DNA of 64,000 bases from Clostridium massiliamazoniense. Lineage in GTDB: Bacteria > Bacillota > Clostridia > Clostridiales > Clostridiaceae. Under the pieces are notes generated by a model, which was not told the DNA's origin, did no database searches, and was given only the letters and a program-made list of their open reading frames with translations. Shown piece after piece: positions 17,075-64,000 of this stretch. The DNA lies in the NCBI RefSeq assembly GCF_001403635.1, contig NZ_LN879466.1, positions 1 through 64,000 on the forward strand, written 5' to 3'. A program made the position numbers and the translations under genes. Every line of letters starts with the position of its first letter. Position 1 is the first letter of the stretch.

Positions 17075-17149
<75 letters not shown>

Positions 17150-45154: not shown

Positions 45155-45538
45155 ATGAATATTACTGAAGTTAGTAAAAAGTATAATATTACCCCAGATA
45201 CATTGCGTTATTATGAGCGAATTGGCTTAATTCCTCCAGTGACTAGGAATAAGAGTGGATATAGGGATTATACAGAATATGATTGTAACTGGGTTTATTT
45301 TGCTAAAGTTATGCGTAATGCAGGAGTTTCTGTAGAAGCAATGGTTGAATATGTATCCTTATTTATGCAAGGTGGAAACACTAAAGAAGTAAGAAAACAA
45401 ATATTAGTTGATCAATATGAACAACTTGAGAAAAAGGTTGAGGAAATGCAAGAAACCCTTAGGTATCTAAAACATAAAATTGATAGGTATGAAGATCATA
45501 TACTTACATATGAAAAAAAATTAACACCAAAAGAATAA
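45155..45538 (+). CDS. MerR-family regulator 1
   Basis: 127 residues: MerR HTH at the start (ITPDTLRYYERIGLIPPVTRN), wing, then a long dimerisation helix. No cysteine cluster for metals, so it fits the aldehyde-responsive or redox NmlR/AdhR-like branch. CAAGGAGG precedes the ATG. About 60% identical by eye to the next gene, 34 bp downstream; they arose by tandem duplication. The two promoters with matching operators are its likely targets. Confidence 0.87.
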   Translation: MNITEVSKKYNITPDTLRYYERIGLIPPVTRNKSGYRDYTEYDCNWVYFAKVMRNAGVSVEAMVEYVSLFMQGGNTKEVRKQILVDQYEQLEKKVEEMQETLRYLKHKIDRYEDHILTYEKKLTPKE

Positions 45539-45572: not shown

Positions 45573-45941
45573 ATGACAATTAAAGAGGTAAGTGAAAAAT
45601 ATGGACTTTCAGCTGATACACTTCGTTATTATGAACGTGTAGGCTTAATACCAAGAGTAAATCGTAATAAAAGTGGAATTAGAGATTATACAGAAGGAGA
45701 TTGTAATTGGGTTCAATTTGCTAAGTGTATGAGAAGTGCTGGACTTCCTATAGAAGCAATAATAGAATATGTTGCTTTATATCAAAAGGGAGAAGAAACT
45801 GTTGAAGCAAGAAGAGAATTATTAATTGAGCAACGTAATATATTAATGGAAAAGTTTGAAGAAATAAAAAGTACAATAGAACGATTAGATAGAAAAATAG
45901 ATAATTATAAAAAAATATCACTAGATAAAAAGAAATGTTAG
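45573..45941 (+). CDS. MerR-family regulator 2
   Basis: 122 residues with the same plan as its neighbour (SADTLRYYERVGLIPRVNRNKSG, quoted only in part as the HTH). One cysteine pair, DCNWVQFAKC, is in the linker between HTH and helix; regulator 1 keeps only the first cysteine. AGGAGG is seven bases before the ATG. Could form heterodimers with regulator 1. Cotranscribed with it, then a dispersed terminator. Confidence 0.86.
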   Translation: MTIKEVSEKYGLSADTLRYYERVGLIPRVNRNKSGIRDYTEGDCNWVQFAKCMRSAGLPIEAIIEYVALYQKGEETVEARRELLIEQRNILMEKFEEIKSTIERLDRKIDNYKKISLDKKKC

Positions 45942-46000
45942 AGTTTCTATGTAAATAAGCTGTGATAATTGATGGTAAGTTACATAGTTGGTTAAAAAGT

Positions 46001-46060
46001 AAGAGGATGTGTCAAATTACGTATACATCCTCTCTGTCTTTTATCTAGTTATATAAGTTC
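46001..46060. terminator. Dispersed bidirectional terminator element, copy C
   Basis: AGAGGATGTGTC and GTATACATCCTCT form a stem, followed by CTTTTATCTAGTTATATAAG. It lies between the convergent merR pair and selenoprotein gene and has the same orientation as copy B. Confidence 0.8.
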
Positions 46061-46082: not shown

Positions 46083-46349
46083 TTATTTTATAACAAGTTT
46101 TTTTCCGAAAAAGGTAGTTTTAAGTTCTATAGTTGCATCTGAAAAAAGTTTAGCAAATCTAGGTTCAACTAATATTTTAATTCCTTTATCTTCAAAAACA
46201 ACATCATCTTCTTTTTGTTCATCCAGAACAAATTCCCAGTCAATGCCACTTCAGCAGCCTTTTTTTCCAAGGATTCTAATGGATTTACTTTGAGAATTTT
46301 TAAGAAGTTCATTGATATAATCTATTGTGTTTTCATGGATTTTTATCAT
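46083..46349 (-). CDS. HesB/IscA-like selenoprotein (in-frame UGA as selenocysteine)
   Basis: 88 residues if the TGA at 46253-46251 is read as selenocysteine. The frame runs from ATG 46349 (GAAAGGA about ten bases upstream) to TAA 46085-46083 and the UGA falls in GKKGC-U-SGIDWEF, exactly at the A-type carrier GCSG motif of IscA/HesB proteins; the sequence after it (LVEPRFAKLFSDATIEL) goes on as a normal family member. HesB-like selenoproteins are a known family. The C-terminal CxC of classical IscA is absent. A stem-loop suited to SelB lies 18 nt after the UGA. Automatic annotation would cut it at residue 32 or miss it. Possible role: redox or Fe-S handling. Confidence 0.85.
46214..46253 (-). 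promoter_or_regulatory. Bacterial SECIS-like stem-loop after the UGA
   Basis: On the minus strand the UGA (46253-46251) is followed by 18 nt and then TTTGTTC-TGGAT-GAACAAA, a 7-bp perfect stem with a 5-nt loop. A G is the second loop base, at about 26 nt from the UGA, within the range known for bacterial SECIS elements. Confidence 0.75.
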
Positions 46350-46599
46350 AGTAATCAATCCTTTCTTTAGAATAATAAATAAAATGTCTTTTACATTATT
46401 TTACCACGAATTAACTCAGATAAACTTTCAAGAAGTTGAGATTTAATATATTATTAAATTTATAGTGTATTAGATTTTAATAAGTGTTATTATTAAAAAA
46501 TTGTATTGATTTTTCCTTGTTAAATTAACCTAAACAATAGATTTAAGGGGATAATTAGGATATAATTAATTTGTGCAATAATAAAAGGTGGTGAAAATT

Positions 46600-46746
46600 A
46601 TGCCTACAAAAAGTAGAAAATCTGTAGCCTATAAGGAAAAAATGAGAAGACGTAGAATAACAACTATGTCATGGCTTAATATTATAGGGGTAAGTATTTT
46701 ATCATTAATTATATTATTTATAGGTAAATGCTTCCTAAGTTTTTAG
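46600..46746 (+). CDS. Small basic single-pass membrane protein
   Basis: 48 residues: a Lys/Arg-rich start (MPTKSRKSVAYKEKMRRRR) followed by one membrane helix (LNIIGVSILSLIILFIG). AGGTGG is eight bases upstream of the ATG and the frame is well formed. No family recognised. N-in topology is expected. Stands alone between the selenoprotein and ABC-F genes, divergent from the former. Confidence 0.65.
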   Translation: MPTKSRKSVAYKEKMRRRRITTMSWLNIIGVSILSLIILFIGKCFLSF

Positions 46747-47054: not shown

Positions 47055-48611
47055 ATGAGCGTTTTACATGTACAAAACATGAGTCATGGTTTTGGAGATA
47101 GAGCTATTTTTGAAGATGTGTCTTTTAGATTATTAAAAGGTGAACATGTTGGATTAATAGGGGCCAATGGTGAAGGTAAATCAACTTTTATGAACATAAT
47201 AACAGGAAAGTTAATGCCTGATGAAGGTAAAATAACTTGGAGTAATAAGGTAAGAGTTGGTTATATGGATCAACATGCTGAACTTGTTAAAGGACAAACT
47301 ATAAGAGATGTATTAAGAAGTGCATTTAAATATCTTTTCGATATGGAAGAGGAAATGAATGAGCTTTATGGAAGAATGGGAGAAATGTCAGAGGATGAAA
47401 TGAATAAAGCTTTAGAAAGAACAGCTGTTATTCAAGATACCCTAGATAATAATGGATTCTATGTAATTGACCCTAAGGTTGAAGAAGTTGCAGGAGGACT
47501 TGGGCTTAAAGATGTTGGTCTTGAAAAAGATGTAACAGATTTAAGTGGTGGACAAAGAACTAAAGTACTTTTAGCAAAACTTCTTTTAGAAACACCAGAC
47601 ATACTTCTTCTAGATGAGCCTACAAACTATCTTGATGAAGAACATATAGAATGGTTAAAGAGATTCCTTCAAAATTATGATAATGCATTTATATTAATAT
47701 CTCATGATATTCCATTCTTAAATAGTGTAATTAACTTAATTTATCATGTTGAAAATAGAGAATTAACTAGATATGTTGGTGATTACGATAACTTCATGAG
47801 AATATATGAAGCTAATAAAAAACAATTAGAAGCAGCTTATGAAAGACAACAAGCTGAAATAGCTAAACTTGAAGATTTCGTTGCTAGAAATAAAGCTAGG
47901 GTTGCAACAACTGGAATGGCAAAATCAAGACAAAAGAAACTTGATAAAATGGAAAGAATTGAACTTGCAGGAGAAAAACCAAAACCAGAGTTCAACTTTA
48001 GATATGGAAGAACATCAGGAAAAATGATATTCGAAACTAAGGATTTAGTAATAGGATATAATGAACCATTAACAAAACCTCTAAACTTAACAATGGAAAG
48101 AGGTCAAAAAATAGCTCTAGTTGGTTCTAATGGACTTGGAAAAACTACATTACTAAAAAGCTTAATGGGAATAATCAAGCCATTAAGTGGAGAAGTAGAA
48201 CTAGGAGACTATCAACAAATAGGATACTTCGAGCAAGAAATAAAAGACGAAAACTATAGAACATGTATAGATGAAATATGGGAAGAGTTCCCTTCATATA
48301 CACAGTATGAAGTAAGATCAGCACTAGCTAAATGTGGATTAATGACAAAACATATAGAAAGTGCAGTACAAGTCCTAAGTGGAGGAGAACAAGCAAAGGT
48401 TAGACTATGTAAACTAATAAATAGAGATACTAACATACTAATCCTAGACGAGCCTACAAACCACTTAGACGTAGAAGCAAAAGATGAATTAAAAAGAGCT
48501 TTAAAAGAATATAAAGGAACAATACTTTTAGTATGCCACGAACCTGAATTCTATAAAGATGTAGTTACAGATATATGGAATTGTGAAGAGTGGACATTAA
48601 AAATAATATAA
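47055..48611 (+). CDS. ABC-F family ATPase (YbiT-like)
   Basis: 518 residues with two ABC domains and no membrane part. Walker A motifs are GANGEGKST and GSNGLGKTT, signatures LSGGQRTKV and LSGGEQAKV, and Walker B DEPTNYLD and DEPTNHLD. The linker between them (about 240-300) is helical and charged, the P-site tRNA interaction motif. It binds the ribosome. It resembles the housekeeping YbiT group and not the antibiotic-resistance types. TGGAGG precedes the ATG. Confidence 0.9.
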   Translation: MSVLHVQNMSHGFGDRAIFEDVSFRLLKGEHVGLIGANGEGKSTFMNIITGKLMPDEGKITWSNKVRVGYMDQHAELVKGQTIRDVLRSAFKYLFDMEEEMNELYGRMGEMSEDEMNKALERTAVIQDTLDNNGFYVIDPKVEEVAGGLGLKDVGLEKDVTDLSGGQRTKVLLAKLLLETPDILLLDEPTNYLDEEHIEWLKRFLQNYDNAFILISHDIPFLNSVINLIYHVENRELTRYVGDYDNFMRIYEANKKQLEAAYERQQAEIAKLEDFVARNKARVATTGMAKSRQKKLDKMERIELAGEKPKPEFNFRYGRTSGKMIFETKDLVIGYNEPLTKPLNLTMERGQKIALVGSNGLGKTTLLKSLMGIIKPLSGEVELGDYQQIGYFEQEIKDENYRTCIDEIWEEFPSYTQYEVRSALAKCGLMTKHIESAVQVLSGGEQAKVRLCKLINRDTNILILDEPTNHLDVEAKDELKRALKEYKGTILLVCHEPEFYKDVVTDIWNCEEWTLKII

Positions 48612-48829: not shown

Positions 48830-50057
48830 GTGTGCCCGGCATGGGCAATAACTTGACGGTGAAAGTCCGTTGTGGGCTTGGTAGTGGGAACCACTAGCTA
48901 ATGACAAGGGTGTCCATCGTGAGGTGGAATCTGAAGGAAGTCGGAGGCAAAGTCTTGGTCTGAGGAATACAAACTACATATAAGGCTTGCTAAGGTTGGA
49001 CGAGTTTGCGGCACAAAACAAAGTCCTACACTACCCGAAACCTTAGAAGTAAATGTAGCAGATATATGAGATGAAGGTTATTGTTCTTACCCGGGGAGAT
49101 CTGATAAATACATTGCTAGTAAAGATGAATTTCTAAAGCAATAACCTATATAGTGATATATAGCTGAATTATCAGAAGTCAGCAGAAGTCATAGTAACTC
49201 CGCTAATCGCGATAGCGGACGAAGGACTGAACTTTAAGGAGGATTCAAATTTTGAAAGTTTCGCAGAATAATCAAAGATTGCAGAAAACTAAATATATAG
49301 GCTCTAGTGCTGAAGATAAAGTGGAGCTTGAAAATAAGCAAAGAGTGCATAGAAATTTCTCGGCAACTTCAAAAGGAGAAACAGGTGAATTTGAGTATGG
49401 CTCATTGGAAAGAATATTATCAAGAGAAAACTTGCTCTTAGCAATGAACAGAGTAATATCTAATAAAGGTAGTCACGGTGTTGACGGAATGACAGTTTAT
49501 GAACTTAAACAATTTCTGAAAACACATTGGCTACAGATTAAGCAGAATATAATTAACAATGAGTATAGACCAATGCCAGTAAGAAGAGTTGAAATACCGA
49601 AACAAAACGGTGGAACTAGACTTCTAGGAATACCAACAGTTTTGGATAGACTTATCCAACAGGCAATAGCACAAGAACTAAATAATATATATGATAGAAA
49701 ATTTTCCGAAAATAGCTTTGGCTTCCGTCCTCAAAGAAGGGCAAAAGAAGCTATTAAACAAGCTGAAAGATTCATTGATGAAGGTTTTAGATGGGTTGTA
49801 GATATAGACTTAGAAAAATTCTTCGATAAAGTAAACCATGATATTTTAATGTATAAACTTTCAAAAGATATTAAGGATAAAAGAACTTTAAAATTAATAA
49901 GAAAATATCTACAGTCTGGGATAATGATAAATGGAGTCGTAATTTCTAACAAAGAAGGAACACCACAAGGTGGACCGCTTAGCCCTTTATTATCTAATAT
50001 TATGTTAGATGATTTAGATAAGGAATTAGAAAAAAGAGGACATAAATTCTGTCGTTA
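48830..50057 (+). mobile_element. Group II intron, 3'-truncated
   Basis: Begins with GTGTGCCCGGC, the group II 5' boundary. AAGGGTGTCC, GGAATCTGAAGGAAG and GTCTGAGGAATAC are conserved domain I stretches seen in many bacterial introns. The 420-nt RNA part is followed by the reverse transcriptase frame inside domain IV. Domains V and VI are absent: sequence homology stops inside the coding region at about 50057, where a transposase relic begins. The intron cannot splice as it is. Confidence 0.9.
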
Positions 50058-50058
50058 G
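49252..50058 (+). pseudogene. ltrA: Group II intron reverse transcriptase/maturase, truncated
   Basis: The first 268 of about 420-480 expected residues. RT motifs up to block 4 are present (RVEIPKQNGGTRLLGIPT, FSENSFGFRPQRRAK, VVDIDLEKFFDKVNHDIL, TPQGGPLSPLLSNIMLDDLD), but the frame stops at HKFCR, just where the catalytic YADD block should follow. Maturase and endonuclease domains are gone. TTG 49252 has AAGGAGG nine bases upstream. The cut is a deletion fused to a tnpA relic, not a point mutation. Confidence 0.9.
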
Positions 50059-56163: not shown

Positions 56164-56197
56164 GTTTTTATAGGTTATTGTAATGGGGGCGAAGTTA

Positions 56198-59055
56198 ATG
56201 TCTAACTTAATACGTGGAAGAGAACTATTTGCTAAAGATCAAAGAAGTTCATTTATGAAAATACCTGAAGATGAATTTTCTATTGGATCTTACTATACAT
56301 TTTCAAAAGAAGACTTAGAAATAATTATGAAACATAGAAAAGAAGAAAATAAATTGGGATTTGCAATACAATTAGCATTATTGCGTTATCCTGGTTGGTC
56401 ATATACTAGTTTTAAATATATACCTGAAAATGTAATTAAGTATATTGCCAAACAAGTAGGAACAGTTCCAAAAGCATTGAAGTATTATGCTAAGAGAGAA
56501 AATACTATTTGGAACCATCTCCAAGAAATTAGAAGTCATTATGAATTTAATTTATTAAACTCTGAGATATATGAAAAAACAAAAGTATATCTGTTTAATA
56601 TTGCAACTAAAAATGATGATACATTAATTTTAATGAATAGAGCTATAGATTATTTAAGAGAACAAAAAGTTATATTACCTGCAATAATAACAATTGAAAA
56701 GCTTGTATGGGAATCAAAAAATGAATCTGAAAAGTTTGTAACAAATACAATAATAAGTTCACTAAATCAAATTCAAAGAAAGAAACTTGATGATATAGTA
56801 TTTTTACATTCAAATAAATTAAAAGGCAAAACTATTTTAGGATGGTTGAAGGAGCCAATCGGAGCACCTTCACCTGATAATTTTTTGAAAGCTATTGATA
56901 AATTAGAATATATATGATTAATAAAATTAGAATCTATTAACGTAGCTGACTTACATCCAAATAAGATTAATAAAATATATAGCTTAGGACAACGCTATGA
57001 ACCACTTGCATTTAGAGAATTTAATGCTGATAAAAGACATGCTTTACTTGTTGTATTTTTATTAAATTTATCAAAAGATTTAATAGGTAAATCTTTTGAA
57101 ATTCATGATAGATTAATCATTACTTTAATGGCTAAGGGGAGAAAAGCTCAAGAAGAACTTCAAAAGCAAAATGGTAAAAAAATAAACGAAAAAAATTCAA
57201 TTCACTAGCATTGGTAAAGCTTTAATAAAAGCTAAAGAGAATAACCTGGATCCATATAAAGTTATTGAAGAAATAATGGACTGTTCAACACTTATAAAGT
57301 CAATTGAAGAAGCCAAAACACTTACTAGACCAGAAGATTATGATTATTTAGATTTAACGTTATTCATTTTTAAGAAGATATACTCCTAAATTATTAAAAG
57401 TATTAGAGTTTAAATCTACAAAATTAAATGAAGCAATACTAGAATCAATTGAAATAATAAAATCTTTGAATAAAAGTGGAAAGCGTAAGATTCCGGATAA
57501 TTCTCCAGTAGATTTTATATCTAAACGTTGGAAAAATCATGTTTTTGAGAAGGATGGATCTATAAATAGACACTATTATGAAATGGCTGTAGTGACTGAG
57601 CTAAGAGGTCGTGTTAAAGCTGGAGATATATCTATATCAGGTAGTAAACAGTAGAAAGATTTTGAGGATTATTTGTTGTCAAAAAATGAATGGATTAACT
57701 CAAAAGAAAACAATAAATTATCTGTAAGTTTATCTTTTGATGAATATATACAAGATAGACTAAATAATCTTAATGAAAGACTTAGGTGGTTATCTAAAAA
57801 TATAAAAAATATTAGTACTATTTCTATTGATAACTGTAAAATTTCAATATCTAGGTTAGAAAATATTACTCCTAAAGAATCTAAAGAACTTAGTTGTAGC
57901 CTATATAAGCTTTTACCTAAAATTAAGCTTACAGACTTACTTATGGATGTTGCAAGAATAACTGGATTTCATAAAGAATTTATTCATGCATATACTAATA
58001 AAAAGCCCGATACAGAAGATACTATTTTAATTATGGCTACTTTATTAGGAATGGGAACAAATATCGGATTAAGCAAAATGGCGGATGCAACTCCAGGAAT
58101 TACTTATAAACAATTATCTAGTGTCTCTCAATGGCGTATGTATGATGATGCTATGTCTAGAGCACAAACGGTCTTAGTAAATTATCACAATAAATTGAAA
58201 CTTGCTAAATATTGGGGTGAAGGAAACACTTCATCTTCAGATGGGATGAGACTTCAACTTGGAGTATCTTCACTACATGCAGTCTCTAATCCGCATTATG
58301 GAACTAGAAAAGGAATCACAATATACAGATTCACTAGTGATCAATTTTCTTCTTATTATTCAAAAATTATAAATACTAATTCTAGAGATGCTACTCATGT
58401 TTTAGATGGATTATTAAATAATGATACTGATTTAAATATAGAAGAACATTATACAGATACAGCCGGATATACAGATCAAGTATTTGCTTTGATATATTTA
58501 CTTGGATTTAGATTTGCACCAAGAATTAGAGATTTATCTGATGTTAAACTATTTACTTTAAACAAGTGTGATAAATTTTCAAATTTAGATGGAATTTTAA
58601 AAGGAAAAATTAATGAAAAAAATATTAAAGATAATTATGATGAAGTATTAAGATTAGCTAGTTCAATAAAGGAAGGTACAGTTACATCATCTTTGATAAT
58701 TAGTAAGTTAGCTTCTTATCCTAGACAAAATAGCTTAGCTACTGCATTAAGAGAAATGGGTAAAATAGAAAAAACTATATTTATTTTAGATTATATTTCA
58801 AATGAAGAATTGAGAAGAAAAATTCAAAAGGGGTTAAACAAAGGAGAAGAAATGAATGGACTTGCTAGAGCAATATTCTTTGGTAAACAAGGGGAAGTAA
58901 GAGAACGAACTATGCAAAATCAACTTCAAAAAGCAAGTGCATTGAATTTAATAATAAATGCTATTAATATTTGGAACACATTATATTTAGAAAAAGCAAT
59001 AAATTATAAAGAATCTATTGGTGAATATATTAATTATAATTTAAAAAAGTTCTAG
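56198..59055 (+). pseudogene. tnpA: Tn3-family transposase, element 2, broken by stop codons and frameshifts
   Basis: Read across four lesions it covers nearly a whole TnpA. DUF4158 part: MSNLIRGRELFAKDQ and GFAIQLALLRYPGW. Lesions: TGA at 56917-56919 region, frameshifts near 57205 and 57370, and TAG at 57652-57654. The C-terminal 460 residues are open and keep the DDE residues: Asp in SSSDGMRLQLG, Asp in HYTDTAGYTDQ, Glu in NKGEEMNGLARAIFFGKQGE. The end is cut at 59055 (NYNLKKF), short of the usual tail, and no right terminal repeat follows. Start ATG 56198 has GGGGGCG upstream. Confidence 0.88.

Positions 59056-62342: not shown

Positions 62343-64000
<1,658 letters not shown>

Follow-up and report, generated by a model that had tools for sequence, protein, structure and literature searches.

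HesB-like selenoproteins are already described: excerpts of one paper count 90 of them in 86 organisms and characterize Clostridia as selenoprotein-rich (PMC5029168). In the portion of a second paper available to us, Alkaliphilus has one HesB-like selenoprotein, and the five selenoprotein types given for C. difficile are all of other kinds, with none HesB-like (PMC1794560), and excerpts of a third paper list a recoding candidate of C. perfringens that is related to HesB (PMC1242214). Extracts of a 2026 review give U-x-G-P as the motif of HesB-like selenoproteins and CxxU as that of the family modeled by NF041239 (PMC13188914). The same extracts state the rules for bacterial SECIS elements, namely a loop of 3-9 nt with a G at its first or second position, a stem of 4-16 bp, a distance of 16-37 nt between UGA and loop, and a minimum free energy (MFE) of ≤ -7.5.

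The locus compared here with these systems lies in a 64-kb stretch of DNA, called the window below, whose GC content is 28.6%. On the minus strand, a frame of 88 codons (46349-46083) runs from an ATG start to a TAA end and is interrupted solely by one TGA, codon 33 (46253-46251). Read through, it encodes the 88 residues MIKIHENT...GKKGC-U-SGIDWEF...KKLVIK, while under the standard code the gene would end at codon 32. A first-pass annotation of this DNA had reported an 88-codon minus-strand frame with a single TGA in a GC-U-SG motif, and we found frame, coordinates, and motif as described. The features are as follows.

46083..46349, minus strand: putative HesB/IscA-fold selenoprotein gene (hesB), 88 codons, matching Pfam PF01521 with 29.0 bits (cut-off 26.3)
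46251..46253, minus strand: in-frame UGA, predicted Sec33, on the domain's first-Cys position (28 of 30 homologues have Cys there)
46254..46256, minus strand: codon of Cys32, adjoining the UGA and the sole Cys of the window protein
46214..46232, minus strand: SECIS-like hairpin by fold prediction, UUUGUUC-UGGAU-GAACAAA, 7 bp with the loop UGGAU
46195..46252, minus strand: longer predicted stem that carries the hairpin and starts within the UGA codon (60-nt fold, -11.1 kcal/mol)
46359..46364, minus strand: RBS-like AAAGGA, 9 nt upstream of the ATG, read from the sequence
45996..46034, minus strand: terminator-like hairpin followed by a T-rich tail, in the gap separating hesB from the regulator gene convergent with it

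The hesB gene is apparently transcribed alone. On one flank is an ORF of 52 residues on the opposite strand (46588-46743), which had no family match in the family-profile searches. The other flank holds two tandem MerR-type regulator genes (45155-45535 and 45573-45938, plus strand) convergent with hesB, and for both the best NCBIfam match is NmlR, at 135.1 and 154.7 bits, below the cut-off of 175. The region of the terminator-like hairpin (45980-46046) folds with -14.4 kcal/mol; a terminator consensus scan listed none here, its loop limit of 8 being smaller than the loop of this hairpin. The promoter scan returned 3 sites vs 6.2 in shuffles, and we therefore claim no promoter.

The kinship with HesB/IscA proposed in the first-pass annotation is borne out by the domain match, since PF01521 (Fe-S_biosyn, HesB/IscA domain) exceeds its cut-off and covers residues 2-83, and by the part behind the UGA, which scores 34.6 bits against a profile of homologues described below. 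Among NCBIfam models, eleven families matched at E ≤ 1, all below their own cut-offs. The best is NF038090 (IscA_HesB_Se; 44.9 bits, cut-off 85, residues 1-75), the second is TIGR00049 (41.5 bits vs 58.8), and lower scores were obtained with TIGR01911 (HesB_rel_seleno; 32.2 bits vs 66.35, with C scored in place of U), on which window residues 7-87 align to model positions 9-91 of 92, and with the CC/Se motif family NF041239 (16.5 bits, E 0.0065, cut-off 40, residues 1-88). The cut-off of NF038090 is strict: 111 of 294 archaeal genomes match this model, and it is reached in none of them and in none of 14 control genomes. A phmmer search against solved structures retrieved IscA (1s98, 1r94) and AQ_1857 (1nwb), with residue 33 aligned to their Cys. 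The best of five AlphaFold2 models, built from a two-row alignment, has a mean pLDDT of 86.9 and a pTM of 0.75 (mean pLDDT of the five from 86.9 down to 55.4), and places residues 31-35 in the loop that joins strand 23-30 to strand 36-42. As judged from the PF01521 match, the read-through product is a protein of the IscA/HesB fold.

To place the UGA in the family, homologues were collected from a Methanosarcina genome (G001) and the genomes of its phylum, 294 in all and all archaeal, of which 31 match the window protein in a search with residue 33 masked. From 52 loci (L001, L002, L004-L053) we obtained 30 distinct homologues. The first-pass annotation had suggested an alignment with Cys-containing homologues as a check, and in it the UGA column is Cys in 28 of these 30, with Glu and Ala in one each. 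The preceding column is Gly in 17, Ala in 10, Asp in two, and Ser in one. The UGA thus coincides with the domain's first Cys, and none of these homologues has a counterpart of Cys32. At least two C-terminal Cys are present in 29 of the 30 and none in the remaining one (L029), which the window protein resembles in this respect, its only Cys being residue 32. Identity to the window protein is 17-33% over the aligned columns (median 30%) and 22-39% in the local matches of the masked search, and these archaeal and distant homologues are uninformative about near kin.

The same 30 homologues, with the window row excluded, were used as a profile to examine homology on either side of the UGA. The whole window protein scores 45.4 bits; the post-UGA part alone, at 34.6 bits, is matched by none of 500 shuffles, and the pre-UGA part scores 5.5 bits, equaled by two of 500 (shuffles unlisted by HMMER, 10 and 18 of 500, were counted as below the score). 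For codon usage, we kept as genes 42 frames of the window that do not overlap and are 120 aa or longer, and built a codon table from them; their stops are TAA in 26, TAG in 15, and TGA in one, a frame of a Tn3 transposase. The 55 codons behind the TGA reach 0.398 bits per codon by this table, compared with a median of 0.327 for 268 genic chunks; as high a value is seen in only 0.3% of 1340 off-frame chunks and 0.7% of 438 intergenic ones. The part ahead of the TGA, a short stretch of 32 codons, scores only -0.097 bits per codon, which counts against the selenoprotein reading. Frames with at least 25 codons before and at least 45 after a single TGA occur eight times in the window; seven of them overlap kept genes, and the hesB frame is the only one outside.

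The hairpin that the first-pass annotation had placed 18 nt after the TGA, with a 7-bp stem and a G-containing 5-nt loop, was reproduced at 46232-46214 and agrees with the SECIS rules. After the 18-nt spacer, the UGA-to-loop distance is 25 nt and G is at loop place 2, so that loop, stem, G, and spacing all lie within the published limits, and the MFE does so when 50-60 nt are folded (-9.3 to -11.1) and falls short of -7.5 when 40-45 nt are folded (-6.5). A 59-nt fold containing the same hairpin has -10.2 kcal/mol (z -1.81), with 10 of 200 shuffles as good. An equally stable hairpin fitting the loop, stem, and spacing rules follows 30 of the 2095 TGAs of the window and arises in 37 of 20,000 synonymous redraws; if the loop must also carry G then G or U, these numbers are 18 of 2095 and 31 of 20,000. 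By its total MFE, the fold stands out only mildly from synonymous redraws (P 0.064). The hairpins of E. coli fdhF and fdnG likewise follow the rules, yet neither is unusual by this null (P 0.63 and 0.45, respectively), implying that the redraw is no general test for SECIS elements. An Rfam scan at a permissive threshold gave six matches, none of them close to its gathering score or relevant.

We consider it very probable that the UGA at 46253-46251 is read as selenocysteine. Its position on the Cys column, the homology behind it, and the rule-abiding hairpin together make Sec much likelier than a chance nonsense mutation or a read error. Against it weigh the NCBIfam scores under the cut-offs, the low codon score ahead of the UGA, the modest fold energy, and the single known sequence. 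The claim of the first-pass annotation that this is a real selenoprotein thus gains from all three, with the reservation that C-U-S-G-I differs from the U-x-G-P motif. The alternative with the most in its favor is a Cys-type gene in which TGT or TGC became TGA by nonsense mutation or sequencing error, so that the gene is freshly broken or misread and contains no Sec. A single base change would suffice, the gene is known from one sequence only, and another TGA-broken gene, the Tn3 transposase fragment, is present in the window. Published criteria for selenoprotein prediction, in the part available, include the warning that one in-frame TGA by itself can stem from a sequencing error (PMC1088965). 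However, the TGA would have had to hit the Cys column by chance and also to be followed by a rule-abiding hairpin, with the low frequencies given above for other TGAs and for redraws, and the 60 nt at the Tn3 TGA fold with an MFE of only -1.0 vs -11.1 at the hesB TGA. We therefore regard this explanation as improbable.

Taking the UGA as a true stop, with a 32-residue peptide and the rest as a remnant, is the reading of the standard code, but the 55 codons behind the UGA hold most of the homology and are coding-like in codon use, which makes it very improbable. Still less credible is decoding of UGA as Trp (code 4). The scarcity of UGA as a stop, one in 42 kept frames, would agree with such a code, whereas the same frames contain 105 TGG codons, just one of the eight TGA-spanned frames lies outside kept genes, and the homologues carry Cys, not Trp, at the UGA column.

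Relatives of the gene were sought more widely, and the hesB gene with its in-frame UGA is known from one sequence, with no close relative found. The contig scans used exact 8-residue patterns and therefore detect close kin only: in genome contigs, 116 pattern-matched stretches yielded one relative, an A-type carrier of Methanosarcina with 31% identity, and in viral contigs none was obtained from 6 and from 18 stretches. Matches in plasmid (six records) and phage (two) sequences were all below 38% identity and included no close relative, with Sec or with Cys; those annotated are ErpA, IscA, or 'assembly accessory' proteins. A single contig from the motif scan was rejected as a relative, and we attribute it to chance because stops flank its frame on both sides and it shows no likeness. 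As to the Sec machinery, tRNA-Sec is not among the two tRNAs found within the window, and SelB had no match in the 38-kb plasmid record of Tepidibacter aestuarii that was reached via the ABC-F gene of the window.

Several other elements of the window were recorded. The ABC-F ATPase gene (47055-48608, plus strand) scores 406 bits with a ribosomal-protection-like model, just above the cut-off of 380, and has ~75% DNA identity to a plasmid gene of T. aestuarii (Peptostreptococcaceae). A group II intron follows (48913-50058, plus strand), with Rfam D1-D4 matches at 48913-49085 and 49142-49227 and a short maturase frame that covers positions 2-211 of 353 (291.7 bits vs a cut-off of 300). The Tn3 transposase is in pieces (56183-59055, plus strand); its frame at 56183-56917 ends in TGA, stays open for 96 more codons past it, and scores 149.9 bits with the NCBIfam Tn3 model vs a cut-off of 500, and 57058-58998 has 74% DNA identity to Tn3 transposases of Cetobacterium plasmids. 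A stretch with class III alcohol dehydrogenase and fghA (62401-64000, plus strand) was probably transferred recently because it has 84.8-86.6% DNA identity to plasmids annotated Klebsiella grimontii and Cytobacillus. HydG is also encoded in the window (661.3 bits vs a cut-off of 312.15). Together with the ABC-F gene, this suggests that the host is probably an anaerobe resembling Clostridia. The first 559 nt (plus strand) comprise the end of LSU rRNA, then 5S, tRNA-Asn, and 5S, and the second tRNA-Asn (17075-17149, plus strand) is identical to the first in anticodon and Rfam score.

If the UGA is read as selenocysteine, SelB with Sec-tRNA-Sec would bind the hairpin at the moment when the UGA is in the ribosome, and residue 33 of an 88-residue protein would be Sec, with the adjacent Cys32 and Sec33 in the loop between the two modeled strands. 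A C-terminal Cys besides the first Cys is a feature of A-type Fe-S carriers of the IscA type, with a role in IscA. As the C-terminal Cys of the homologues is missing here, cluster carriage as in IscA is improbable, and the classic role of an Fe-S cluster carrier is unlikely for the window protein. The role we prefer, tentatively and with somewhat less than even confidence, is that of a redox-active Cys32-Sec33 pair or of metal or sulfur binding via Sec33. Were the reading of the UGA right, the host would be implied to have the Sec-decoding trait.

Compared with known systems, the window protein shares with the A-type Fe-S carriers IscA, ErpA, and SufA (PF01521; 1s98, 1r94, 1nwb) the domain and the position of the first Cys, but would have Sec in place of that Cys and has no C-terminal Cys. 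With NF041239, there is a weak match over the full length, whereas the motif in the extracts on that family is CxxU and here it is CU. NF038090 is the best match, but the last 25 of its 101 positions are unmatched. With the HesB-like selenoproteins of TIGR01911, the protein has in common the domain, the length, and the predicted Sec at the first Cys, and differs in its score, below the cut-off, and in having C-U-S-G-I where the excerpted review gives U-x-G-P for the family. The first-pass annotation had stated that U occupies this motif in HesB-like selenoproteins, which is right only in part, given the U-x-G-P of the review. A HesB/IscA-fold branch with C-U-S-G-I is absent from the family table in the extracts of the review (119 by its count; PMC13188914) and from the papers searched, in the parts available. 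The motif, as listed, and the family-model scores suggest a divergent branch. We think it rather unlikely that this is a separate branch with adjacent Cys-Sec and no C-terminal Cys, in which an Fe-S carrier has become a protein for Cys-Sec redox chemistry or metal binding; with scores under the NCBIfam cut-offs, such a branch would have escaped notice. The window protein is probably a divergent member of the HesB-like selenoproteins, an already known kind, which would thereby gain such a member.
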